DNA from: Limnomonas spitsbergensis
Taxonomy: Eukaryota > Chlorophyta > Chlorophyceae > Chlamydomonadales
Length of the DNA: 64,000 nucleotides
Assembly: GCA_037349105.1 (NCBI GenBank)
Contig: JAYJMM010000094.1
Span: forward strand, 2,604,001 to 2,668,000
Reading direction: 5' to 3'
Positions 367 through 41,375 of the stretch are shown here, one piece after another. The stretch's first letter is position 1; each line of letters begins with the position of its first letter. The position numbers and the translations under genes are program-made. The notes under the pieces are model-generated. The model was given only the letters and a program-made list of their open reading frames with translations. It was not told the origin of the DNA and did no database searches.

Positions 367-3300
367 CTGATGCTGTAGGAGTCTGCGGTGCAGGGCGCCG
401 TACAGAGGCCGCTGGCAGCCGCTCAGCGCTAACGCCTCCGATCCTGTTCGTCCCAACCCGCGCAGAATCTGAGAGCGCAGGGGAGGGCGGGGCCTGCAGA
501 TCCGGCCTGGGTGCAGAGCGAGCACGGGACGGGTCCTCTGAGCCGCGGCGGGCGCTGGGGCTGCGCGGCGGGCGCTGCGGATCAGCAGACCTACCCCTGT
601 GCGTGAGGGAGCAAACGCGGCCCGTGATTAGGAAGCACAAGTCAGAGGTAGGACATAAGCAGCCCCCCCTCTTGTAGGGTCAGCTCATACAGCCAATCCG
701 GCTCCTCTCTCGTCACTTTCAGCCCATTGCCGCTGCAGAAGAAATTGTATTCCAGCACCCAACCCAATGCCAGACATTCAGCCGCCCTGATCTCCATCCT
801 TCACTGGCACGGCCCTCCAGCTCACTGACCGTGAGTCTACCGAGCCTGCAAAGGAGCCGTCCCTGCTGGCACGGCCCTCCAACGCCTGTTGGGCGGCTGA
901 CAGCCGTGCCTCACGTCCTTGGCGGATGATGCGCAACCCCTCAGACTCCAGAGGCTCCTAGACGGAGCAGTGCCGGCAAGAGGGGAGGACGGGCAGAAGT
1001 GAGGCAGTGCAAGCAGCAGGGTCAAGGACTGGCTGAAGCGTATCAGACTGAAGCTTATCAGGCTGAAGCGTGTCAGGCTGAAGTATATCAGACAGCAGGA
1101 TAAAGCAAAGCCCCTAGGACTGCAGGACCTCCTAGGCAAAGCAGTGCAGGAAAGGGGTATATGATGAGGCAGCATTAAGCAGCAAGGGCAGTTGCATGCA
1201 GTAGGGGCATAGAGCATGAGGTGGAAGAGGCATAACGCATCAACAGTGGCAGGCAGTAGCAGGCAACAGGGGCAGTAGCATGCAGCAGGGGCATAGAGCA
1301 TGAGGTGGGAGAGGCATAACGCATCAACAGTGGCAGTTAGTAGCAGGCAGGAGGGACAATAGCATGCAGCAGGGGCATAGAGCATGAGGTGGGAGGAGCA
1401 CAACGCATCAACAGTGGCAGTTAGTAGCAGGCAGGAGGGGCAATAGCATGCAGCAGGGGGCATAGAACATGAGGTGGGAGGAGAATAACGCATCAACAGC
1501 GGCAGGCAGTAGCAGGCAAGAGGGGCAGTAGCATGCAGCAGGGGCATAGAACATGAGGTGGGAGGAGCATACCGCATCAACAGTGGCAGTTAGTGGCAGG
1601 CAGGAGGGGCAGTAGCATGCAGCAGGAGCATGAGGTGGGAGGAGCGTAACGCATCAACAGTGGCAGTCAGTAGCAGGCAGGAGGGGCAATAGCATGCAGC
1701 AGGGGCATAGAGCATGAGGTGGGAGGAGCATAACGCATCAACAGTGGCAGTTAGTAGCAGGCAGGAGGGGCAATAGCATGCAGCAGGGGCATAGAGCATG
1801 AGGTGGGAGGAGAATAACGCATCGACAGAGGCAGTTAGTGGCAGGCAGGAGGGGCAATAGCATGCAGCAGGGGCATAGTGCATGAGGTGGGAGGAGCATA
1901 ACGCATCAACAGTGGCAGTTAGTAGCAGGCAGGAGGGTCAATAGCATGCAGCAGGGGCATAGAGCATGAGGTGGGAGGAGCATACCGCATCAACAGTGGC
2001 AGTTAGTGGCAGGCAGGAGGGGCAATAGCATGCAGCAGGGGGCATAGAACATGAGGTGGGAGGAGAATAACGCATCAACAGTGGCAGTTAGTAGCAGGCA
2101 GCAGGGGCAATAGCATGCAGCAGGGGCATAGAGCATGAGGTGGGAGGGACATACCGCATCAACAGCGGCAGGTAGTAGCAGGCAGCATGGGCAGTAGCAT
2201 GCAGCAGGGAAAGTAGCAGGTAGCAGCCACATACAGCATTAGGCAATGTGCGGCAGCATGAGCAGCAGGGGTGGAGAGCATCAGGCAGTAGGGGCAGGCT
2301 GTGGCATGTGCAGCATATAAGGCAGCAGGCTGCATGCTCAAGTGCCAGGCAGCAGGGGCAGTGGCAAGTGCAGCATATCAGGGGAGAGACATCATGCAAC
2401 ATTGTGCAGCAGGAGCCGCCTATCAGCTCAGCCTTAGACTGCACCTTGGCCTCATCCTCCTGGTCGGGATGCATGCCTGCCATCTTGATCAGGTCACGGC
2501 GGTTCTTCTTCTCCAACGCATGGCGGACCTGCAATCGGTGTGGTCGGGGCCAGGGTCGGGGTCGGGGTTGGGGCTGATGGGGGATACAGCAGGAATATAA
2601 AAGCTGTGCAGATAGGGCCGAGGCCGCACCTATGCCGCTCCCGGTGAACCGTGCACCACAAACACCAGTATTTCCTTTTTCGTGACTCAGCAACATGTCA
2701 GCAGCACTCCGGCTTCTGGCCGCCAACCCCGTTTGTTGGCAGCTGTGCTGCTTTGGCCACAAGTCGTAGGCTGGTCCAAGTTTGGTCCCTTTTGGGCCAT
2801 AGGCGGCCGTGGGGCGGCCTGCTAACAGTGGACTGAAGGAAAAAAAAGAAACACTGGTGACACACTCTACCAAGACCCCCAACCAATGCTGTGTCGCAAC
2901 AACTGGAAACCTGCATGCCCATGCGGCTCTCCTTGCTTTCTACGAGTCAATGAAAAGAGGTCCTGGTTGCTCTGTCAAGGCTGAGCAGTGGACCATCGGG
3001 CCAGAGCTTAGCGGCATAATAGGACTGAAGACAGAAATCAACAAAGCTGCTCCCCCCTTGGGACGTGGCAGCGCAGGTAGCAGCCAAACGGGAGGGTCTA
3101 GGAGGGAACACAGACCAGTGTTTATTTTAGTGCGCTTTAGCCAGACTTCAGGTACATCACGGCCTACGGCCGCAGGAGGCTGGTGCTGCTAGCCCTGCTG
3201 CTTGGTCCACCGGCTGTAGGCCGGTCAAGGCTTCGTTTCATTTTGCGCAGTGGTGGCCGCCCGGCGGCCACCGAAAGGTCGTCTGGCGCACACTAAAGTA

Positions 3301-6600: not shown

Positions 6601-9600
6601 TCAAAATTCCATGTTTTGGGCATTCTGTGGATGCAGGGTAACAGCTAGACGGGAGGGAGGGCATGGCAGCAGAGGTGAAATGAGGGGCGGGCAGGCCACT
6701 GAACTGCGTTTTCCCCTCAATATATGATGGCCTATGGGAGGCATCCTGTGGGCGCAGGCTCATAGCCAGAGGGGAGAGGGGAATGAGAGGTGGCAGGGCC
6801 GCAGACTCGGAGAGAGGGAAGCAGGTAAGGGGGTAGAGAGGCTGGGACGGTCAAGTGGCCAGGCATTCCCCCACTGGCCTTGAGGAATATGTACCCACCC
6901 AATTCACCATTGATCACAAACCAACTCATCCCCCCCCCACCCCCTCTTTTCCCACCCATCCATCCACCTCCCTCTCGTCCCACCCACCCACCCATCCACC
7001 TCCCTCTCGTCCCACCCACCCACCCACCCTACCCCCTCTCGTCCCACCCACCCACCCATCCAAGCCCAACTCGCGCCCCCCCCTCCCCCAAGCCCCCCCC
7101 TGATATGTCCTCCCCACCCTGATCAGGAGTTGGACTCTCAGGTGGATGTTCCCGGTGCCGATGGAGCACACGAAAGGTCCAGCCTCTTTCCGCTTCCCGG
7201 CGTCAAGGACAAAGCTTTCGTCCTCTAGGCGGGGCGTCAGGCCAGTAAACCAGGCTGCAGGTGGGAGGGGGAGGAGAGCCAGGACAGGTGAGGAGTCAGG
7301 CCAGTGAACCAGGCTGCAGGTGGGAGGGGGGGGGGAGTCAGGGCAGGTGAGGAGTCAGGCCAGTGAACCAGGCTGCAGGTGGGATGGGGGGAGAGTCAGG
7401 GCAGGTGAGGAGTCAGGGCAGTGAACCAGGCTGCAGGTGGGAGGGGAGGGGAGTCAGGGCAGGTGAGGAGTCAGGGCAGTGAACCAGGCTGCAGGTGGGA
7501 GGGGGAGGGAGAGTCAGGGCAGGTGAGGAGTCAGGGCAGTGAACCAGGCTGCAGGTGGGAGGGGGGGAGAGTCAGGTCAGGTGAGGAGTCAGGCCTGTGA
7601 ACCAGGCTGCAGGAGGGAGAGGGGGGAGTCAGGACAGGTGAGGAGTCAGGGCAGTGAACCAGGCTGCAGGTGGGAGGGGGGGGGATTCAGGACAGGTGAG
7701 GAGTCTAGGGCAGTGAACCAGGCTGCAGGTGGGAGGGGGGGGGGGAGTCAGGGCAGTGAACCAGGCTGCAGGTGGGAGGGGGGGGAGGGTCAAGGCAGGT
7801 GAGGAGTCAGACCAGAGAACCAGGCTGCAGGTGGGAGGGGAGAGAGTCAGGGCAGGTGAGGAGTCAGGCCAGTGAACCAGGCTGCAGGTGGGAGGGGGGG
7901 GGAGAGTCAGGCCAGTGAACCAGGCTGCAGGTGGGAGGGGGGGGGGGGGGGGGAGGAGTCAGGGCAGGTGAGGAGTCAGGGCAGTGAACCAGGCTGCAGG
8001 TGGGGGGGGTGGGGAGAGTCAGGGCAGTGAACCAGGCTGCAGGTGGGAGGGGAGGGAGAGTCAGGGCAGGTGAAGAGTCAGGGCAGTGAACCAAGCTGCA
8101 GGTGGGAGGGGGGAGAGTCAGGGCAGGTGGGGAGTCGGGGCAGTGAACCAGGCTGCAGGTGGGAGGGGGAGGGACAGTCAGGGCAGTGAACCAAGCTGCA
8201 GGTGGGAGGGGGGGGGGGGGGGGGGGTCAGGGCAGGTGAGGAGTCAGGGCAGTGAACCAGGTTGCAGGTGGGAGGGGGGGAGAGAGTCAGGGCAGGTGAG
8301 GAGTCAGGGCAGTGAACCAGGCTGCATGTGGGAGGGGGGGGAGAGAGTCAGGGCAGGTGAGGAGTCAGGGCAGTGAACCAGGCTGCAGGTGGGAGGGGGG
8401 GAGAGTCAGGGCAGGTGAGGAGTCAGGGCAGTGAACCAGGCTGCAGGTGGGAGAGGGAGGGAGAGTCAGGGCAGGTGAGGAGTCAGGGCAGTGAACCAGG
8501 CTGCAGGTGGGAGGGGGGGGTCAGGGCAGGTGAGGAGTCAGGGCAGTGAACCAGGCTGCAGGTGGGAGGGGGGGGAGAGTCAGGTCAGGTGAGGAGTCAG
8601 GGCAGTGACCAAGCTGCAGGTGGGAGGGGGGGGGGGGGGTCAGGGCAGGTGAGGAGTCAGGGCAGTGAACCAGGCTGCAGGTGGGAGGGGGAGGGAGAGT
8701 CAGGGCAGGTGAGGAGTCAGGCCTGTGAACCAGGCTGCAGGAGGGAGAGGGGGGAGTCAGGACAGGTGAGGAGTCAGGGCAGTGAACCAGGCTGCAGGTG
8801 GGAGGGGGGGGGATTCAGGACAGGTGAGGAGTTTAGGGCAGTAAACCAGGCTGCAGGTGGGTGGGGGAGGGGGAGTCAGGGCAGTGAACCAGGCTGCAGG
8901 TGGGAGGGGGGGGAGGGTCAAGGCAGGTGAGGAGTCAGACCAGTAAACCAGGCTGCAGGTGGGAGGGGGGAGAGTCAGGGCAGGCGAGGAGTCAGGCCAG
9001 TGAACCAGGCTGCAGGTGGGAGGGGGGAGAGTCAGGGCAGGTGAGGAGTCAGGGCAGTGAACCAGGCTGCAGGTGGGAGGGGGAGGGGGAGTCAGGGCAG
9101 GTGAGGAGCCAGGCCAGTGAACCAGGCTGCAGGTGAGAGAGGGGGGAGTCAGGACAGGTGAGGAGTCAGACCGGTGAAGCTGGCTGCAGGTGGGAGGGGG
9201 GGGGAGAGTCAGGGCAGGTGAGGAGTCAGGCCAGTGAACCAGGCTGCAGGTGGGAGGGGGGGGGTGTCAGGGCAGGTGAGGAGTCAGGCCAGTGAACCAG
9301 GCTGCAGGTGGGAGGGGGGGGAGTCTGGGCAGGTGAGGAGTCAGGGCAGTGAACCAGGCTGCAGGTGGGAGGGAGGAGAGCCAGGACAGGTGAGGAGTCA
9401 GGCCAGTGAACCAGGCTGCAGGTGGGAGGGGGAGAGCCAGGACAGGTGAGGAGTCAGGCCAGTGAACCAGGCTGCAGGTGGGAGGGGGGAGAGCCAGGAC
9501 AGGTGAGGAGTCAGGGCAGTGAACCAGGCTGCAGGTGGGAGGGGGGGAGTGTCAGGGCAGACGAGGACTCATGCCAGTAAACCAGGCTGCAGGTGGGAGG

Positions 9601-12600
9601 GGGGGGAGAGTCAGGGCAGGTGAGGAGTCAGGGCAGTGAACCAGGCTGCAGGTGGGAGGGGGAGGGAGAGTCAGGGCAGGTGAGGAGTCAGGGCAGTGAA
9701 CCAGGCTGCAGGTGGGAGGGGGAGGGAGAGTCAGGGCAGGTGAGGACTCAGGGCAGTGAACCAGGCTGCAGGTGGGAGGGGGGGGAGCCAGGACAGGTGA
9801 GGAGTCAGGGCAGTGAACCAGGCTGCAGGTGGGAGGGGGGGGGGGTCAGGGCAGGTGAGGAGTCAGGGCAGTGAACCAGGCTGCAGGTGGGAGGTGGGGG
9901 GGGAGTCAAAGCAGGCCAGAGGGGGGGGGGAGCTTTGCAGGTGGGAAGCAAGGCCAGCAAACACACTGCAGGTGGGAGGGGTGGGGGAGGAGTGCAGGCT
10001 GAGTTTGGAATTGAAGTTCCAGGTGGGGTTTGAGGGCAAGGATAAATGTTTAGAAAAAAAACCCAGGCAAATCCTGCTGCTGTAGTCCGGGCTGTGACAC
10101 TAATTAGGCCAGGCCCCATGCGTTCCCTTATGCCTTATCCCGTATGCCACTGAAATTCAGTATCTTTTTTTACTATGTGTATGTGTCAGCCCACATGCTC
10201 TGTCTGAAGGCACCTACGCCAGTCCTAGTCCCTATCCTGCCTCCCAATTACACCATAGGGCACCTCTCATGCAGCTGCAGTCTCCCCATGCACCTCACCT
10301 GGCATGTTACACCTCTCCTTCCCCCTAGCTCATCGTATGCCACCTGATGAACACCTCAGTCCCTCCATGCACCACAAACTACGTTGCAATTTGACCTGAC
10401 CCGCCTCCCCCCTCGGTTACTTCCACCCACCCAACAAGCGTCTCTGGCCCCACCATTTCTCCTCAACTCTCCTTCCCCCTTCCCCCCCTTAACCTACCAA
10501 ACAAGCGTCTCTGGCCCCACCATTTCTCCCTAACTCTCCTTCTTCCTTCATCCCCTTAACCCACCCAACAAGCGTCTCTGGCCCCACCATTTCTCCCTAA
10601 CTCTCCTTCCCCCTTCCCCCCCTTAACCCACCAAACAAGCGTCTCTGGCCCCACCATTTCTCCCTAACTCTCCTTCCCCCTTCTCCCCCTTAACCTTCCA
10701 AACAAGGGCCTCTGGCCCCACCATTTCTCCTTAACTCTCCTTCCCCCTTCATTCCCTCAACCCACCAAACAAGCGTCTCTGGTGCAGCCTTTGTGTATCC
10801 ACCACAAACCAGGTCGGGCATTCAATGCGGTGCACACCCGGCATCTGTGGAAGTGAGCAGAGCCCATACGATACAAACGCATCCTTGTCGGCAATGTCGC
10901 TGCGACTGTACACCATGAATACGAGGCTCGGCCAGCCCTGTGTTCAGGGGGGGATGCAGGAGGGGGGAAGGGAGGGGTGGGGCCCACACATGTAGGAGGA
11001 GAGCAGGGAGGGGTGGGGCCCGCGTATGTAGACCGCTCTTGCCTAAAACATAAACACTGGTCGTTTTAAATATTCATTTGGGGAGGGACGTTCCCAATGC
11101 CCCACCCCATCAGACTGAAAGCAGGTGCAGGCTAGAGAGTGGGGTAGAAGGGGGCAGCTCGGAAATGTCATGCAGCGCCATGAAATGAATGGGAGTCGGA
11201 TCCAAATTGGGTTTTAAGATGGCTTCTCGACAACCAAACCCTCAGATCCAACGCGGCAAGACAGGCCCTCAATCATGGATGCCGAGTATTGGATGCTAAA
11301 TGCTCAGACCCCAACCCATCCCCCCTCTTGTGCCTCTGTCTCGACTCAAGTCCTGTGCATGCCTCCCACCCACCTGATGTCTCATTCCAAGTCATGTGCA
11401 TGACTCCCAGTGGCTCCCACCCACCTGATTGGTCTGTGTGCTGAGTAGCATATCAAGCGGATGCTCCCATGCCACAAAGTCTTCCTCTGGGTGTGATGAG
11501 ATGGCAAAGTGAGTAGCGCCCTGTGATACAGTAAAAAAACAGGTGGAATGGAGCAAAGTGAGTGGCGCCCTGTGATACAGTACCAAATAGGTGGAATGGA
11601 GCAAAGTGAGTAGCACCATGTGAAACAGCATCAAATAGGTGGAATGGAGCAAAGTGAGTAGCACCCTGTGATACAATACCAAATAGGTGGAATGGAGCAA
11701 AGTGAGTAGCGCCCTGTGATACAGTACCAGATAGGTGGAATGGAGGAAAGTGAGTAGCGCCCTGTGATACAATACCAAATAGGTGGAATGGAGCAAAGTG
11801 AGTAGCGCCCTGTGATACAGTACCAGATAGGTGGAATGGAGCAAAGTGAGTAGCGCCCTGTGATACAATACCAAATAGGTGGAATGGAGCAAAGTGAGTA
11901 GCGCCCTGTGATACAATACCAAATAGGTGGAATGGAGCAAAGTGAGTAGCGCCCTGTGAAACAACATCAAATAGGTGGAATGGAGCAAAGTGAGTAGCGC
12001 CCTGTGATACAATACCAAATAGGTGGAATGGAGCAAAGTGAGTAGCGCCCTGTGAAACAACATCAAATAGGTGGAATGGAGCAAAGTGAGTAGCGCCCTG
12101 TGAAACAGCATCAAATAGGTGGAATGGAGCAAAGTGAGTAGCGCCCTGTGATACAGTACCAGATAGGTGGAATGGAGCAAAGTGAGTAGCGCCCTGTGAA
12201 ACAGCATCAAATAGGTGGAATGGAGCAAAGTGAGTAGCGCCCTGTGATACAGTACCATATTGGTGGAATGGAGCAAAGTGAGTGGCGCCCTGTGATACAA
12301 TACCAAATAGGTGGAATGGAGCAAAGTGAGTAGCGCCCTGTGATACAGTACCAGATAGGTGGAATGGAGCAAAGTGAGTGGCGCCCTGTGATACAATACC
12401 AAATAGGTGGAATGGAGCAAAGTGAGTGGCGCCCTGTGATACAGTACCAGATAGGTGGAATGGAGCAAAGTGAGTGGCGCCCTGTGATACAGTTTCAAAT
12501 AGGTGGAATGGAGCAAAGTGAGTAGCGCCCTGTGATACAATACCAAATAGGTGGAATGGAGCAAAGTGAGTAGCGCCCTGTGATACAATACCAAATAGGT

Positions 12601-15600
12601 GGAATGGAGCAAAGTGAGTAGCGCCCTGTGAAATAGTACCAAATAGGTGGAATGGAGCAAAGTGAGTAGCGCCATGTGAAACAATACCAAATAGGTGGAA
12701 TGGAGCAAAGTGAGTAGCGCCCTGTGAAACAGCATCAAATAGGTGGAATGGAGCAAAGTGAGTAGCGCCCTGTGAAATAGTACCAAATAGGTGGAATGGA
12801 GCAAAGTGAGTAGCGCCATGTGAAACAATACCAAATAGGTGGAATGGAGCAAAGTGAGTAGCGCCATGTGAAACAATACCAAATAGGTGGAATGGAGCAA
12901 CTGTATTGGAGTTTTCAGACTCGGCTTCATTCGGCATTATCGGCTACCGTATTTGTTAGCTTTGAGGTGCCCTGCCAATGATGGCCTCGTTAGCAAAAGC
13001 GAAACATTGAGAAGGTGCATGGTGGCAAGGGATGTCCCAAGCCATGCAGAGCCGCACCTTGTCCAGACCCTTGATGATGCTCCACGTCTTGGTGGGTTCG
13101 TGTACGAGCTGCCATCTGAGCAGGGAGGCAGCGGTGAGGTGGCAGCGGTGTGGAGGTAGTGGTGAGGTGGCAGCAGTGTGGAGGTAGTGGTGAGGTGGCA
13201 GCCGTGTGGAGGTAGTAGTGAGGTGGCAGCAATGTGGAGGTACTGGTGAGGTGGCAGCAGTGTGGAGGTAGTGGTGAGGTGGCAGCAGTGTGGAGGTATT
13301 GGTGAGGTGGCAGCAGTATGGAGGTATTGGTGAGGTGGCAGCAGTATGGAGGTACTGGTGAGGTGGCAGCAGTGTGGAGGTAGTGGTGAGGCCCTCTACC
13401 TCTGGCTCTCCACCACCCCACGTCACAACAGCTCTGCCTCAGGCACCTTGCCCTGCTTATGAAGAAGCATCACACCCTCAGATCTCAGTATACCACCCAT
13501 TCCGATTCAAAACAATATATTCCCAGGGCATGATACACGTCCTCTTCCACCAGACCCAAACAAATCATCATTTGTTTGATGTACATCTGCTCCAGGCAGA
13601 TATCAGGCCTTCGCCTTCGATGCCCCTAAACGTGAGTGTCTCGCGCCACGGCGTGGCGCAAGTCTGCAGCTGCTACCCTATCCACATCCCCCCCCAAACA
13701 TGACCCGTGTACGGTAATCCGTTTTGGTGAGGTGGATCCACTTCAGGCAGAGATCAGCCCCTTGCCCCGCGTGCACCCCCACCAAGAATCGCGTGCCACG
13801 GCGTGGGTTAGGCTGAAAGTCACTGCCATATCCACATGCCCCCTCAAACAAAGGCTGCCAGGCAATACAAGCCGTGACTCCCCTGCCATCCTGGTGGCTG
13901 AACCGCCACACGTGTACAAATGAGTGCCTGTGGACCCTTAAAGGAGGTCGCACACCCAAACATGAGGTTTTACTTGTGCACTTCCCATGGATGTTGCATT
14001 AAGACATCTCACTTGCAACTGAGTGCCTGTTGACCCTCAAAGAGAGTCCCCCCCCCCCAAAATCTCCGTGTTTTTGCTTTTGCAGTTCGTATGGATGTCG
14101 CATTAAGACATCTCACCTGCAACTGAGTGCCTGTCGACCCTCAAAGTGCGTCGCGCCCTCAATCTCGCCGATTATGTGGAGCTGAGCGGAGCCCCGCGGA
14201 GTGTCTCCCTCACCGTGCTGACCTTCCTGGTTAAGGGTTTCACGCTTTAGACTTCAGTTTGCAGGTTTCATGTTTAGGGTTTCACAATACAGATTTCAGG
14301 TTTCAGATGGGCACCAGTACCCTGTTTATCAGGCAACATGCGATGCCTGGGCATGCGACTGCAAATCAGGTTAACACAGGTGCCGACACCTACTGAACAC
14401 ACGCACAATGGCAGCCATGCACCATGGCAGGATTGGCAGCCATGCACTCTGGCAGCCATACATCATGGAGTGCTGCCATGCGTCCAGGTGCCAGACCGGC
14501 GTCATGACCAGGTATGATGATCAGGCACGCTGCACACCCTGGTGTGGGAATAGAGGCACTAGGCAGGTGCTGGCAGTGTGGAGGGGCTGAAGGGGCAGGG
14601 GGTGAGCTGGCAGTGTGGAGGTGCTGAGGGTGACAGGGGAGGGGGGGGCTGGCAGTGTGGAGGTGCTGAGGGTGACAGGGGAGGGCTGGAGGTGTGGCAG
14701 GGCTGAGAGAGCAGGGGGGGGGGTCTGGCAGTGTAGAGGTGCTGAGAGGGGTAGGGGGGCTGGAGGTGTGGAGGGCTGAGAGAGCAGGGGGGGGGGTCTG
14801 GCAGTGTAGAGGTGCTGAGGGGGGTAGGGGGTGCTGGAGGTATGGAGGGCTGAGAGGGCAGGGGGGGGGGGGGGGGGGCTGGCAGTGTGGAGGGGCTGAG
14901 AGGGCAGGAGGATCTGGTGGGTTGAAGAGCTGAGGGGGCAGGGGGGGGGGCTGGCAGTGTGGAAGGGCTGAGGGGATAGGAGGGGGGGCTGGCAGTGTGG
15001 AGGGGCTGAGAGGGCAGGAGGAGCTGGTGGTGTGGAAGGATTGAGAGGGCAGGGGGGGACCCTTGCCTCATCAATTCGTCATCCCTTATCCAGGTATGGA
15101 TGTCCCCACTAGCCTGCCCCAATCTATTTACCCTCTCCCAACCACCTATTCTGCACCCCTTCCCATGCTTACCCCCTTCCCAGCAGCACCTCCTTTGGAG
15201 CGGCTGCCTTGTCGGTGGAAGCTGTGTTCGCTACCGCTGTCTCGCACCGATCCTTTAGCAGTGCGGGCTCGAGCCAATGACCTGACCAGCAGCAACAATA
15301 GGAGTGGGAGGTTTGGAGCTTGGCTTAACTGGGAAAGGAGCCAAGAACCCCATCAGCAGCAGCTGCAAAAAGAAGTGGGAGGATGGGTTTTTCATTGGAC
15401 ATAGAGACATTGACCTGACGAGCAGCAGCAGTAATATGGATGGGAGGGTGGGAAAGAGGTTGCACTGGGCTTGGAAGCAAGGATGCGGTGGCCTAGTGAC
15501 AGAACCAGGATTCCAGGCTCCAATGCAGGGTTACATTTAAGCCCTCAACGCTGTTATCGGCTGCAAATCAGCAATGCCGTTGGGCAGGATGGCAGATCCT

Positions 15601-17065
15601 CAAGACCTCAATCAGGCATTGCAGTGTCGATGAATAATGAGGATTGAAACCTCTGCATGCGTCACTGCTGGCCGGTCAGTTAACGCTGGCCAAATCCAAC
15701 ACGGCTTAAGTTCACTCAGTGCCCGAGTCTGCTCAGCTGAACAGCCTGCTCAGTTCAAAAGACAGCACAGTTCAGCAGTCTGCTCAGATACGATAGGGAG
15801 TGTTGGGACCAGTTTTTTTTTTTGCCACAAGTCCACTTTCAGCAGGCCTGCCTAACGGCCACCTATGGCCCAACGGTGACGAAACTTGGACCAGCCTACG
15901 ACTTGTGGCCAAAGCAGCACAGCTGTCTACAAACGGGGTTGGCGGCCAGAAGCAGGAGTGCTGCTGACATGTTGCTGAGTCACGAAAGAAGAAACACTGG
16001 TTGGGAATGAGCCTATAGCTAGGCAGGGTGGGTTTTAACTTTACGATCTGCCTATGGTGTCTGATGCAGGAATGCAGTCTATATGACTATATGTGTGTGG
16101 GGGGGGAAGAAGTGGGCGGCCCTAATCACTGGCCTTAGTGCGCATGGGAGTAAGTGGCCGTACCTTATGTACCAAGCAAATATTGGCCATGCAAACATGA
16201 GCCAGACGCTGATTCACGTCATTGCTGCTGCTCTGCATTGTTAATGCTGCGCTGAGAGCTGTGCCTCTCGCATGGCTATGTTTATTTGTGTGCACTTGAG
16301 ATACCATGTAGAGTACAGCACGGGGGGACCTGATGCGCCCCCCCTGCTTAGGCCACCAGCAGTAGGCTCATCAAGATTTGGTCCCCATGTTCCCAGCGGG
16401 GGCCTCCAACAGACCAGCCAAGATTGGTCGGGTGCACACTAAAAGAAACGCTATTGCATGGCGTGCGATCATTTCCCAGGCCACGTGCACGAAGCAGCCC
16501 CAGCAATCTTTCCTAAACCTCATGTGCAGCTGCTGCACATGTCACAAACACGCAAACTTTGGCCTACCTCATGTGATACAGGTTCCAGGCGGTTGCATGG
16601 GCTTCAACAAAAAGAAATATGCTTCTTGGTGTGTGGATCAAAGGAGGTCATGCTAATCGTTTACCTTAGGACACGCCTGGACGCTGAGTGCCCTGCTTCG
16701 CCCTCTTTAGACAAACGTGATGCTGCTGTGGCTGGTGTGCCCTGGTTGGAGAGGGTCCCCCCATGCTCTGTCACGGCTGGGGAAGAATCCTTAGGAGGCG
16801 AGGGAAACTCATTCATGCTTTGGCTGGCAGCCCTGCATGCGTGCATCAGCAGTCATCGGCCAGTGCGTCAGGTAGGCATGGGGCAGGCATGATTGGCTGT
16901 GAACGTGACAATCCAAGTAACTTGCCGCGCAGCATTGCCGTTTAGAGGCGTGCCCTCGATACTCCCGGACGTCTCTGGTGCGTCCGAGCGCTGTGCTGCA
17001 TTTCGCCTCTGGTCCCTCCGGTCTGAAGCTGACTGTACAGCATCCACCGGGCTAGCGTCAGCCAT
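6601..17065 (-). CDS. B9D1: B9 domain-containing protein 1 (B9D1/MKSR1-like), ciliary transition zone
   Basis: Nine exons: 17065-16905, 16832-16665, 15281-15173, 14217-14117, 13115-13058, 11520-11425, 10937-10766, 7254-7118, 6624-6601. All junctions agree in phase and give 341 codons plus TGA. Residues about 158-334 form the B9 (C2-like) domain: LHIIGEIEGATHF, SCRWQLVHEPTKTW, GLDKGATHF, VAWEHPLDMLL, GWPSLVFMVYSRSD, then FAWFTGLTPRLEDESF and IHLRVQLLIR. Spacing from GL to W to GWP matches what I recall of B9D1 better than B9D2, and SWF-like AWFTG also fits B9D1. MKS1 is less likely but not excluded. In ciliates, animals and algae B9D1 acts with B9D2 and MKS1 at the transition zone gate. Residues 1-150 are a Ser/Arg/Ala-rich, probably disordered extension. 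The first donor (GTTCAC) is weak, so the exon 1-2 join is the least certain. Introns are swollen by minisatellites and two MITEs. Confidence 0.85.
6930..7080. repeat. Short C-rich array just downstream of a B9D1 donor
   Basis: Repeats of cccacccatccacctccctctcgt, about 28-29 bp, four or five copies. On the sense (minus) strand it is purine-rich and begins about 40 nt beyond the 5' splice site at 7117. The coding-like frames of Pro/His/Thr are artefacts. Confidence 0.75.
7240..9960 (-). repeat. Acceptor-junction minisatellite, about 59-bp unit, roughly 45 copies
   Basis: Every unit contains gaaccaggctgcaggtggg on the plus strand. On the minus strand this is a pyrimidine tract, CTGCAG, then CCTGGTTCACTGGCCTGAC. 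That equals the true 3' splice site and the first 20 or so bases of the B9D1-like exon 7254-7118 (CTGCAG|CCTGGTTTACTGGCCTGAC). The spacing between units is 57-65 bp, with expansions in poly-G tracts. Long frames (SEPGCRWEGG...) are artefacts. Confidence 0.9.
10430..10790 (-). repeat. Donor-junction minisatellite, exact 67-bp period
   Basis: The word aagcgtctctgg (or a one- or two-base variant) occurs at 10436, 10503, 10570, 10637, 10704 and 10771. The last occurrence is inside the real exon 10937-10766. On the sense strand each unit ends CCAGAGACGCTTGTTTG followed by GTGGGTTAAGG or a variant, repeating the last 17 exon bases plus the 5' splice site. Donor dinucleotides are kept in most copies but changed to GA in the copy nearest the exon. 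Confidence 0.9.
11521..12905 (-). repeat. Acceptor-junction minisatellite, 48-bp unit, about 28 copies
   Basis: The unit on the sense strand reads pyrimidines, TGTATCACAG, then GGCGCTACTCACTTTGC. This reproduces the 3' splice site and first 17 or so bases of the B9D1-like exon 11520-11425. All units are 48 bp (16 codons) except the one next to the exon,​ which is 49 bp because of a T-run. Two frames therefore stay open for about 500 codons (GATHFAPFHLFGIVSQ repeat); they are unlikely to be separate genes. Confidence 0.93.
13130..13395. repeat. 27-bp minisatellite upstream of a B9D1 exon
   Basis: About ten copies of ggtggcagcagtgtggag with a 27-bp period. On the sense strand it is a pyrimidine-rich tract running directly into the acceptor at 13116. 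It does not contain exon sequence. Confidence 0.85.
13925..14150 (-). repeat. Duplicated donor junction of a B9D1 exon
   Basis: The 3' end of exon 14217-14117 with its donor reads, on the sense strand, CAGGCACTCAGTTGCAG|GTGAGATG. It is followed downstream by a second copy near 13985-14040 (TTGCAAGTGAGATGTC) and a weaker third near 13921-13945. The duplicated word acatctcac(c/t)tgcaactgagtgcctgt is easy to see on the plus strand. A further diverged tandem pair lies at 13580-13850. Confidence 0.7.
14575..15060. repeat. G-rich minisatellite with variable unit
   Basis: Irregular copies of ggctggcagtgtggaggtgctgag separated by G tracts, with unit lengths from about 45 to 70 bp. It lies in the intron between B9D1-like exons 15281-15173 and 14217-14117 and is pyrimidine-rich on the sense strand. 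Confidence 0.8.
15810..15999. mobile_element. hAT-type MITE, 190 bp, 8-bp target duplication (7 of 8)
   Basis: It starts CAGTTTTTTTTTTTGCC and ends GAAGAAACACTG. The flanks are gttgggac (15802-15809) and gttgggaa (16000-16007). The interior is nearly the reverse complement of 2666-2856. It sits in the second intron of the B9D1-like gene. Confidence 0.85.
16276..16453. mobile_element. hAT-type MITE, 178 bp, diverged
   Basis: The left end ctatgtttatttgtgtgcac and right end gtgcacactaaaagaaacgcta are imperfect inverted repeats. The flanks tcgcatgg (16268-16275) and ttgcatgg (16454-16461) agree at 7 of 8 positions. It shares the GTGCACACTAAA subterminal motif with the copy at 3116-3307 and lies in the same intron as 15810-15999. 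Confidence 0.65.
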
Positions 17066-39394: not shown

Positions 39395-41375
39395 AAAAGG
39401 AGGGCAAACCACAACAATAACAACAACAACAAATAAAAAAAGGACCAAAAGAGAAGGCCGGAAAGGCCAACGACACCGGCCTCGGAAACCCTGAAGACTA
39501 GCCCTCAATAATGCCCACAGCATAGTAGTCCACAAAAGCAAGTGCGTCCCACCCATGCTCAGCCTGGTACAACTGGTGGAAGATAGTGGCAGCGCCCGGA
39601 GGACATGCCCACCTATGCTCCCGTAACTGCTCCCCGACACTAGGGCACTGGACGCACACATGCAGCGCATCCTCTACTCGCTCGCTACTGAGTATCCCCC
39701 GTTCCCAACACCGCTGGCAGCAGCGTGCCTGTCGCCGCTGACCGTTGCGCCGTCCTCTGGTATCCGCAGTGCTGATCGCGCCAAGCCGCTGTTGCAAATT
39801 GATGCGCACACAAGCACACTCCTTCTGACTAGTGCGGCTCTTGGCTTGCGCCAGCACGGCACCCGCCGTGGACCGGATCCAGGCGCGGTACGTCGCCGCA
39901 GATCTGTGCTCGGTGGTAGGGTCCCTGGGGTCCCCACCGCCGCTTGCGTCCATCCGTGCTTGCTCGTAGGCTGCGTCAACGAGTGCCAACACCTCTGTCA
40001 CGGGTAGGCGCGGTAGGGCAGCTGCTGCCTCGCGCAAGGTGGGGGTGGCTGCCCCCCGCTCCAGCTCCTCTAATGCACCCATTAGATCAGAGCACCAGGT
40101 GCGGCCGGCAGTGCCCTGGCTGATTGCAAGCTGCATATCTGCTGCCATGGCTTGAGCCATGAGAGGGCTGTATTGCTGTGCCTCCGGTGCCACCGCTGCA
40201 TTGTAGAAGCGGAGGATATGGGCCCACCAGTCTCGCTGTAGTGGCTGGAGCTGCAGCTCTCTCATGACTCCCCAACTGGCGGCTGATGCAGGTAGCCCCG
40301 CAGCCTGGCGTAGGTGCTGAAGCAAGCTGGACTGCATTTTGCTGGAGAGACATTGCAGCGGCCGAAGGTGGCTGGTGGCCCACACCACATCGCCGTAATT
40401 GGCCGCAGGCGCTGCGTACACAGCCTGATGCGGGTTGGAAGATGGCGCCTTAGGCCCACCTTGGCTGCCATGCGGCGAACACGGTGCAACGCGGCAGCCA
40501 AAGGCGCCTGTCTACCCTCCATTGCCCTCTTCATGCCGCCGCTTTCGTGCCGAGTGATGCCCAAGAATTTGAATTCTTGGACACGCTTCAACATGGTACG
40601 GTCAGGGCCGTAAAAGCAAACATGGGCTGGCTGTCGGCGTTGCGCTGCTAAGCGGCTGCCAAACTCCATGATCTCTGTCTTACTGACATTGTCTTGAACC
40701 TGTTTATGTGCCGCATGTTCATGCAAGGCATCAAGCATGCGTTGCAGCCCTGCTGGGGTGCGGGCTAGCAAGGAGAGGTCATCCGCATACAGCAGGCAGC
40801 GGACTTGTCGCCCTGTCTGCATCTCAATGCCCTCTGCCGGGCACTTGGCTGCGAGCATGGCCGGCAGGTCACTGAGGTAAAGGCTAAACAGCAGGGGGCT
40901 CAGGGGACAGCCCTGTTTGATGACTCTGGTGCAAGGCACATGACCAGTGCGCTTGTGGCCGTCAGTGAGCGTGTAAACTGCACTGGCATAAACCGCTTGC
41001 ACCGCGCGTAACAGGCGTGCATGCATGTGAAGATGCTCGCATAAATGCCGCCACAGCTGCTCCTGGGGCATGCTGTCATAGGCCTTTGTGAAGTCCACAA
41101 AGGCCACATGCAGCTTGCCACGGCCTGCAGCTGCCCGTTGACCATGGACTGCATGCCTGAGGAGGAAAGCAGCCTGGAGCGTGCTACAGCGCTGTTAAAA
41201 ACCAACCTGCTCAGGAGGGACGTGGCCGTGCAATCGCGCCCACTCATCAGTGATGGCAGTGAGCATGCTGGCATACAGCCGGTAAAGCACGCTAGTGATG
41301 GCGATAGGCCGGTGATTACCGGGATCAAGGGGGTTGCCCTTCTTGTAAACAGGCTGAATATCGACAGGTGAAAAT
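39395..41375 (-). mobile_element. 5'-truncated, inactive LINE (non-LTR) retrotransposon
   Basis: Reverse transcriptase motifs read in order on the minus strand: VYKKGNPLDPGNHRPIAIT (near 41330), FVDFTKAYDSMP (41100), IKQGCPLSPLLFSLYLSDL, and YADD at about 40778-40789. Then EFKFLGI and a C-terminal Cys/His motif, CCQRC ... HVCVQC, and a stop at 39498. The copy is broken by a TAA near 41200 (after EQVGF) and a frameshift near 40430. The 5' part including any endonuclease is missing. The 3' flank is A-rich on the plus strand as (aac)n and poly-A-like tracts. Confidence 0.88.

Follow-up and report, generated by a model that had tools for sequence, protein, structure and literature searches.

A 48-bp minisatellite in intron 2 of the predicted B9D2 gene of the green alga Limnomonas spitsbergensis carries the junction with exon 3 inside its repeat unit; most probably, it was seeded by a duplication that crossed this junction, expanded, and is spliced out with the protein unchanged. 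The window analyzed is a stretch of 64,000 nt (assembly GCA_037349105.1, contig JAYJMM010000094.1, positions 2,604,001–2,668,000, forward), and all coordinates are window positions unless stated otherwise. The gene, which encodes a B9-C2 protein, lies on the minus strand at 14187–7118.

The exon 3 acceptor array and its gene

The array extends over 11504–12900 on the minus strand and, according to Tandem Repeats Finder (TRF), features a period of 48 bp, 29.1 copies, 93% matches, and 0% indels. In gene orientation, the unit combines 31 nt from the end of the intron with the 17 nt that open exon 3. The exon (11520–11425) starts as CACAG/GGCGCTACTCACTTTGC—the slash marks the splice junction—and its own first 17 nt are included in the array. 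Since every unit contains this 17-nt exon segment, the repeat spans the splice junction, as proposed in a preliminary description of this DNA. The minus-strand motif CA[CT]A[GT]GG[CT]GC[CT]ACTCA occurs 29 times, 28 times within the intron and once at the exon, so that the approximately 28 copies of the adjacent 3' junction that had been described are indeed present. The same description counted about 28 acceptors in a row, which is too many: CACAG is found in 25 of the 29 motifs (the authentic site and 24 decoys), and the remaining four read CACAT. Its statement that each unit is 48 bp long with a junction identical to the acceptor holds for most units but not for these four, nor for the length of the exon-proximal unit, which has 49 bp.

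The exon-proximal unit (11508–11556, minus strand) adjoins the authentic acceptor CACAG/GGC at 11520 and carries a run of seven T, with TTTTTTT in place of the TTTGGTA (or a variant of it) of the remaining units. The longest pyrimidine run near the acceptor is 7 at the authentic site, compared with 4 or fewer in the 24 AG-bearing decoys. Because of the extra base in the 49-bp unit, all 24 AG-bearing decoys lead to a frameshift, which is followed by a premature stop (24/24).

The number 48 equals 3 × 16, and the frame that would run from exon 2 into a decoy meets no stop in the array before the last unit; the array could thus be read as an exon encoding a 16-residue repeat, (GATHFAPFHLFGTVSQ)n. 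This is extremely improbable and was rejected on frame, stops, and homologue alignment: the extra base of the exon-proximal unit gives exon 3 a reading frame different from that of the array, after which a stop follows; the unspliced frame of exon 2 hits a stop before the array; and B9D2 homologues align over the junction of exons 2 and 3 without a long insertion.

As judged by its sequence, the gene is B9D2 and not B9D1-like as first labeled. The model of exons 1 to 4 has a single protein match, a bird B9D2, with 40% identity over 89% of the query (E = 1.1e-15), and its domain is Pfam B9-C2 (PF07162, 108.8 bits). With exon 5 added, the Pfam score reaches 127.2 bits, up from 108.8, and the match, which had ended at position 122, covers positions 1–165 of the 166 in the profile. 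A spliced alignment of the minus strand, made with 98 B9D2 homologues as a profile, places exons at 14187–14117, 13115–13058, 11520–11425, and 10937–10809; the six junctions that begin with the donor of exon 1 and end with the acceptor of exon 4 are those of the hand model. The hand model had itself been part of the alignment used to find the homologues. The coordinates 11520–11425 given for exon 3 in the preliminary description are right, as the profile places the same exon.

This profile alignment supports 11520 as the acceptor that would continue the conserved B9D2 protein, and only 11520 is predicted to give B9D2. When the AG at 11520 is altered in silico, the alignment score decreases from 81.3 to 73.9 and no decoy is taken instead. 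Judging from homology and frame, 11520 would also be the site used in the cell. Since all 24 AG-bearing decoys give a premature stop, use of a decoy is unlikely to be tolerated where a functional protein is made. The earlier proposal that the spliceosome chooses the last acceptor or tolerates the use of others is thus supported in its first part and unlikely in its second.

The individual exons are as follows, all on the minus strand. Exon 1 is known in part (LHIIGEIEGATHFEGRQALSC; 14117–14187, start codon not located) from the spliced profile alignment and the protein alignment and ends in the donor CAG/GTGAGA. Exon 2 (13058–13115, donor AAG/GTGCGG) and exon 3 (GATHFAISSHPEEDFVAWEHPLDMLLSTQTNQ; 11425–11520, donor CAG/GTGGGT) are given by both the hand model and the profile alignment. 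Exon 4 (10766–10937, donor TTTG/GTGGGTT) comes from the hand model; the profile alignment shares its acceptor and ends before its donor. Exon 5 (7118–7254, donor position within one base) encodes the C-terminal part of the B9-C2 domain and rests on the Pfam gain, because the profile alignment stopped within exon 4, short of exon 5. The search of PDB sequences with the 131-residue model gave no match up to E = 1, and no Rfam family passes its gathering threshold in the window.

Junction copies in B9D2 and in other genes

Copies of splice junctions were sought with a 32-mer composed of 16 exon and 16 intron bases, allowing up to 7 mismatches on the same strand within 4 kb. In B9D2, such copies are found at four of the eight junctions and in three of the four introns. 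The end of exon 1 and its donor (GCAA/GTGAGATG) have a second, intronic copy approximately 104 bp downstream (13968–14054, minus strand), detected by this test and by a local alignment over 87 nt; this single decoy ends in a stop (1/1). At exon 4, a minus-strand array of 5.3 copies of 67 bp (10425–10782; TRF and overlap table) covers the last 17 nt of the exon and the donor; GT is kept in four of its five decoys, and all five lead to a stop. At exon 5, an array of approximately 46 copies of about 60 bp (7236–9915, minus strand, 2.7 kb; TRF and overlap table) covers the first 19 nt of the exon and the acceptor. It has 45 decoys, of which 44 keep AG, and a stop results from each of these 44, though 20 are in frame. 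The B9D2 decoys with intact GT or AG total 73. A further array in intron 1, 9.6 copies of 28 bp at 13124–13391 (minus strand; TRF, sequence, and overlap table), is intron-only, its end lying 8 nt short of exon 2.

By eye, the exon 3 donor ATCAG/GTGGGTGGGAG seems to recur in degenerate form about 52 bp into intron 3 (11373–11430, minus strand), a copy that is not among the matches of the junction-copy test.

Exon 3 begins with GATHFA (11504–11520, minus strand) where the 98 B9D2 homologues mostly have GQTQVD, and exon 1 too has GATHF, encoded by similar DNA (14142–14158, minus strand). This is a possible sign that sequence from the repeat rewrote the start of exon 3. The similarity between the unit and the exon 1 DNA reaches a score of 31, which is attained by 10 of 2000 shuffles. 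The idea was not adopted, since at least 15 of the 1556 further tile comparisons made within the window score higher; it is weakened further by the divergence of the protein from conserved columns elsewhere—the model agrees with 32 of 54, and five of the misses are terminal residues absent from the model.

Introner elements are dispersed intron-generating repeats with near-identical copies at many unrelated loci. No such dispersal was found for the exon 3 unit: a two-unit query of 96 bases against the whole 260-Mb genome, with a tool that passes over very common words and with one candidate place scored, gave 13 matches, and an exact 28-mer gave 6, all of them within the exon 3 array.

The arrangement itself recurs in other genes. 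A sample of 16 kinesin loci was obtained via Pfam PF00225 (139 exon matches), picked by score and compact span, and modeled by spliced alignment to a kinesin 2/24-type profile of 31 sequences, in a custom program whose penalties were set by hand; 9 of the 82 introns lack a GT donor and were excluded. A search of the genome for further intron repeats that overlap the flanking exon had been suggested in the preliminary description, and they were found: junction-spanning copies are present at 8 of 138 kinesin junctions and in 7 of 69 GT-AG introns. In the first 11 genes, to which the controls were confined, reversed junction 32-mers have a copy at none of 106 junctions (0/106), which argues against chance as the source of the junction copies; 32-mers from exon interiors have copies in 8 of 400 cases, those from intron interiors in 286 of 800.

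Together, B9D2 and the kinesin genes feature 12 affected junctions, six donors and six acceptors. Each of the 137 copies counted across the 17 genes falls within its own intron, and GT or AG is kept in 127 of the 139 copies at the 12 junctions, 112 of the 139 coming from three arrays (exon 5, kinesin locus L040, and exon 3). In L033, six copies behind CTAG encode variants of the authentic motor motif GHIPYRDSKLTRIL, such as SHLPYRDSKLTRIL. In L028, six copies encode SCFAYGQT or SCFAHGQT, a sequence of the motor domain. This donor array (minus strand, donor at 967) is unlike the other large arrays in that GT is lost in four of six decoys while the remaining positions are 96% conserved. Because three of the lost GTs read GC and one reads AT, few events may be involved.

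These counts bear on a regulatory role of the decoy row, in which the choice of a decoy would yield a frame-shifted message that is degraded and the output of B9D2 would be tuned in this way. A switch of this kind would fit the premature stops from all 24 AG-bearing decoys of exon 3 and all 44 of exon 5 as well as the retention of GT or AG in 127 of 139 decoys at the 12 affected junctions, but it is improbable. At the exon 3 decoys, conservation of the AG dinucleotide is 0.929, compared with 0.942 at the remaining positions; the two values are about equal, and selection for decoy function is thus not visible. In addition, unrelated genes show the same arrangement, and most random insertions would give stops anyway.

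Two further genes on the same contig show junction copies, found by eye and without a control. In a PALP-family gene (Pfam), presumably cysteine-synthase-like, a 163-bp array copies the exon end LQQFENPANPN together with its GTGAGT donor, and the 11-mer GTGAGTGTGAG occurs four more times past the authentic donor. In a PDEase_I gene (Pfam), an 81-bp array copies the acceptor and the exon start GYNNDFLIKS. Minisatellites are abundant in this region: the window joined with 200 kb upstream (264 kb) consists of approximately 27% minisatellite (26.9%; 89 arrays with periods of 15–200 bp, small overlaps between arrays permitted). A 64-bp minisatellite of about 354 copies spans 22 kb (G000:C94:2578039-2600499, or 174039–196499 of the joined 264 kb) and ends approximately 3.5 kb upstream of the window start. 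Within the window, 40265–41194 holds a reverse transcriptase frame (Pfam RVT_1, 2e-23), and the stretches at about 2650–2830 (minus) and 15790–16000 (plus) have similar translations (..LDQPTTCGQSSTA..KRGWRPEAGVLLTCC), perhaps from a dispersed repeat.

Origin and removal of the arrays

The frequency of junction-spanning arrays was compared with a seeding null, in which the first unit is placed at random in an intron of ancestral length and an array counts as spanning with at least 8 nt over the junction. In this count, the exon 5 array was entered at its TRF best period of 234 bp and not at 60, and diverged repeats unreported by TRF were excluded. A junction is spanned by 8 of 30 intronic arrays, with 4.9 expected (P(≥8) = 0.086); for the kinesin genes taken separately, whose choice did not depend on arrays, the count is 5 of 25, with 4.0 expected. 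Arrays lying wholly inside an exon number 0 across 14,037 modeled exon bases. Because the span counts are not clearly above the random expectation and the modeled exons hold no internal arrays, untargeted duplication combined with loss of exon-internal arrays is enough to account for the pattern.

A targeted origin, in which a feature of transcription or splicing such as R-loops starts tandem duplications preferentially at exon–intron boundaries, would find some support in the 8 spanning arrays over the 4.9 expected and in the four of eight B9D2 junctions affected. It is nevertheless unlikely: the excess is not significant (P = 0.086), the kinesins alone are at 5 of 25 against 4.0, and spanning arrays are expected in any case because exon-interior ones would be lost.

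In the preferred account of untargeted seeding and removal by splicing, a tandem duplication over the intron 2/exon 3 junction, comprising 31 nt of intron end and 17 nt of exon start, would have formed the seed, and later growth to approximately 29 units would have occurred through the ordinary processes of unequal exchange or slippage. Splicing to the exon-proximal acceptor would take out every copy; the protein would be unchanged because the copies sit on the intron side and are removed by correct splicing. The exon-proximal acceptor would be used probably by exon definition—by pairing with the nearby downstream donor—and, at exon 3, the longer pyrimidine run would aid it. Seeding need not aim at splice sites, as arrays would arise in many introns, and those crossing a junction would be tolerated because splicing discards the copies. 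A benefit to the cell is presumably absent.

Several points weigh against this account. The seeding model is crude, with one null, ancestral length obtained by subtraction, and B9D2 included though it was picked for its array. The 8 arrays compared with 4.9 expected leave room for a mild junction preference, with which the counts are compatible. The designation of a copy as exon-proximal derives from protein homology. The longer pyrimidine run at the exon 3 acceptor is without parallel at exon 5 or L033, where authentic and decoy tracts are about equal. Finally, the branch-point motif CTNAC is not enriched near or upstream of 60 kinesin acceptors; the idea that CTCAC in the exon copy serves as the branch point of the next unit was dropped for this reason, and no branch-point account of the winning of the last acceptor follows.

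Relation to known systems and significance

Tandem duplications over exon–intron boundaries were named mirages in amphioxus, where globin genes and Adh3 are cited (PMC3087553); PGBD5 and troponin C are further cases (PMC3902484). The structure in B9D2 can be classed with mirages by the structural features tested and is notable for its host, copy number, and spread. According to the published descriptions, the mirages of Adh3, the globins BflGb6 and BflGb9, troponin C, and PGBD5 are likewise minisatellite-like duplications over donor or acceptor boundaries. The unit spans the boundary—here with 17 nt of exon 3, 17 nt on the donor side of exon 4, and 19 nt of exon 5—and both boundary types are hit, as with the six donors and six acceptors found here. 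GT or AG is kept in many but not all copies (127 of 139 here), and the boundary unit is left out of the homogenization of the inner units. The differences are the host, a green alga and not a cephalochordate; the copy number, with two acceptors of a single gene flanked by 28 and 45 copies here compared with 6 and 3 repeat units in two haplotypes of BflGb6 (PMC3087553); and the spread over 7 of 69 sampled kinesin introns. As for the host, the best named matches of a kinesin 2/24-type protein of this genome come from algae, namely Astpho2 (taken as Asterochloris), Tetraselmis, Trebouxia, and Chlorella, which marks it as a chlorophyte. In addition, the amphioxus account reports RT-PCR that suggests undisturbed splicing (PMC3087553), whereas the algal case is described from DNA sequence. 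In the open-licence literature, covered by titles and abstract openings, no junction-spanning minisatellite in a green alga is described among the matches listed.

Human genes in segmental duplications are described as having internal tandem repeats at exon–intron boundaries, with units averaging 30 bp in four copies, that are tied to alternative transcripts and novel introns (PMC2812944). Those repeats are similar to the arrays described here in being minisatellites at boundaries able to supply extra splice sites (PMC2812944). They differ in that homology here indicates one authentic junction and that the B9D2 decoys with intact GT or AG all lead to a stop.

The array could also be the remnant of intron gain, in which a tandem duplication in an ancestral exon made the intron, as in the Rogers model. 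In potato RdRp, an intron was reportedly gained by tandem duplication of an AGGT-bearing exon segment in this manner. The likeness lies in a tandem duplication over splice signals; the copies contain both exon and intron sequence, and for amphioxus it has been suggested that mirages can give rise to new introns (PMC3087553). This origin is very unlikely for intron 2, whose 5' part (13057 to approximately 12901) lies outside the array, which suggests that the intron is older than the array. Unlike in Rogers-type gain, the intron seems pre-existing and lengthened, and no new intron is evident.

Tentatively, junction-spanning minisatellites may stand in about a tenth of the introns of this alga, with one gene carrying 73 decoys of intact GT or AG whose use would abolish the protein and with splicing set mainly by position, so that the exon-proximal copy always wins. 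If true, exon definition in an alga could be studied in a competition assay that nature itself runs across the genome. In classical splice-site duplication experiments, near-identical sites that differ almost only in position are built by hand. Natural equivalents would be provided here by rows of 24 and 44 AG-bearing decoy acceptors in addition to rows of decoy donors, and the array could separate the effects of location with respect to the exon, of distance to the opposite splice site, and of small differences such as the 7-T run. For annotation, gene predictors could choose decoy junctions in genomes of this kind. A phenomenon described, in the accounts cited, mainly from amphioxus would now include a green alga; it could be explained simply, by tandem duplications that arise at random in short introns and are tolerated by splicing.

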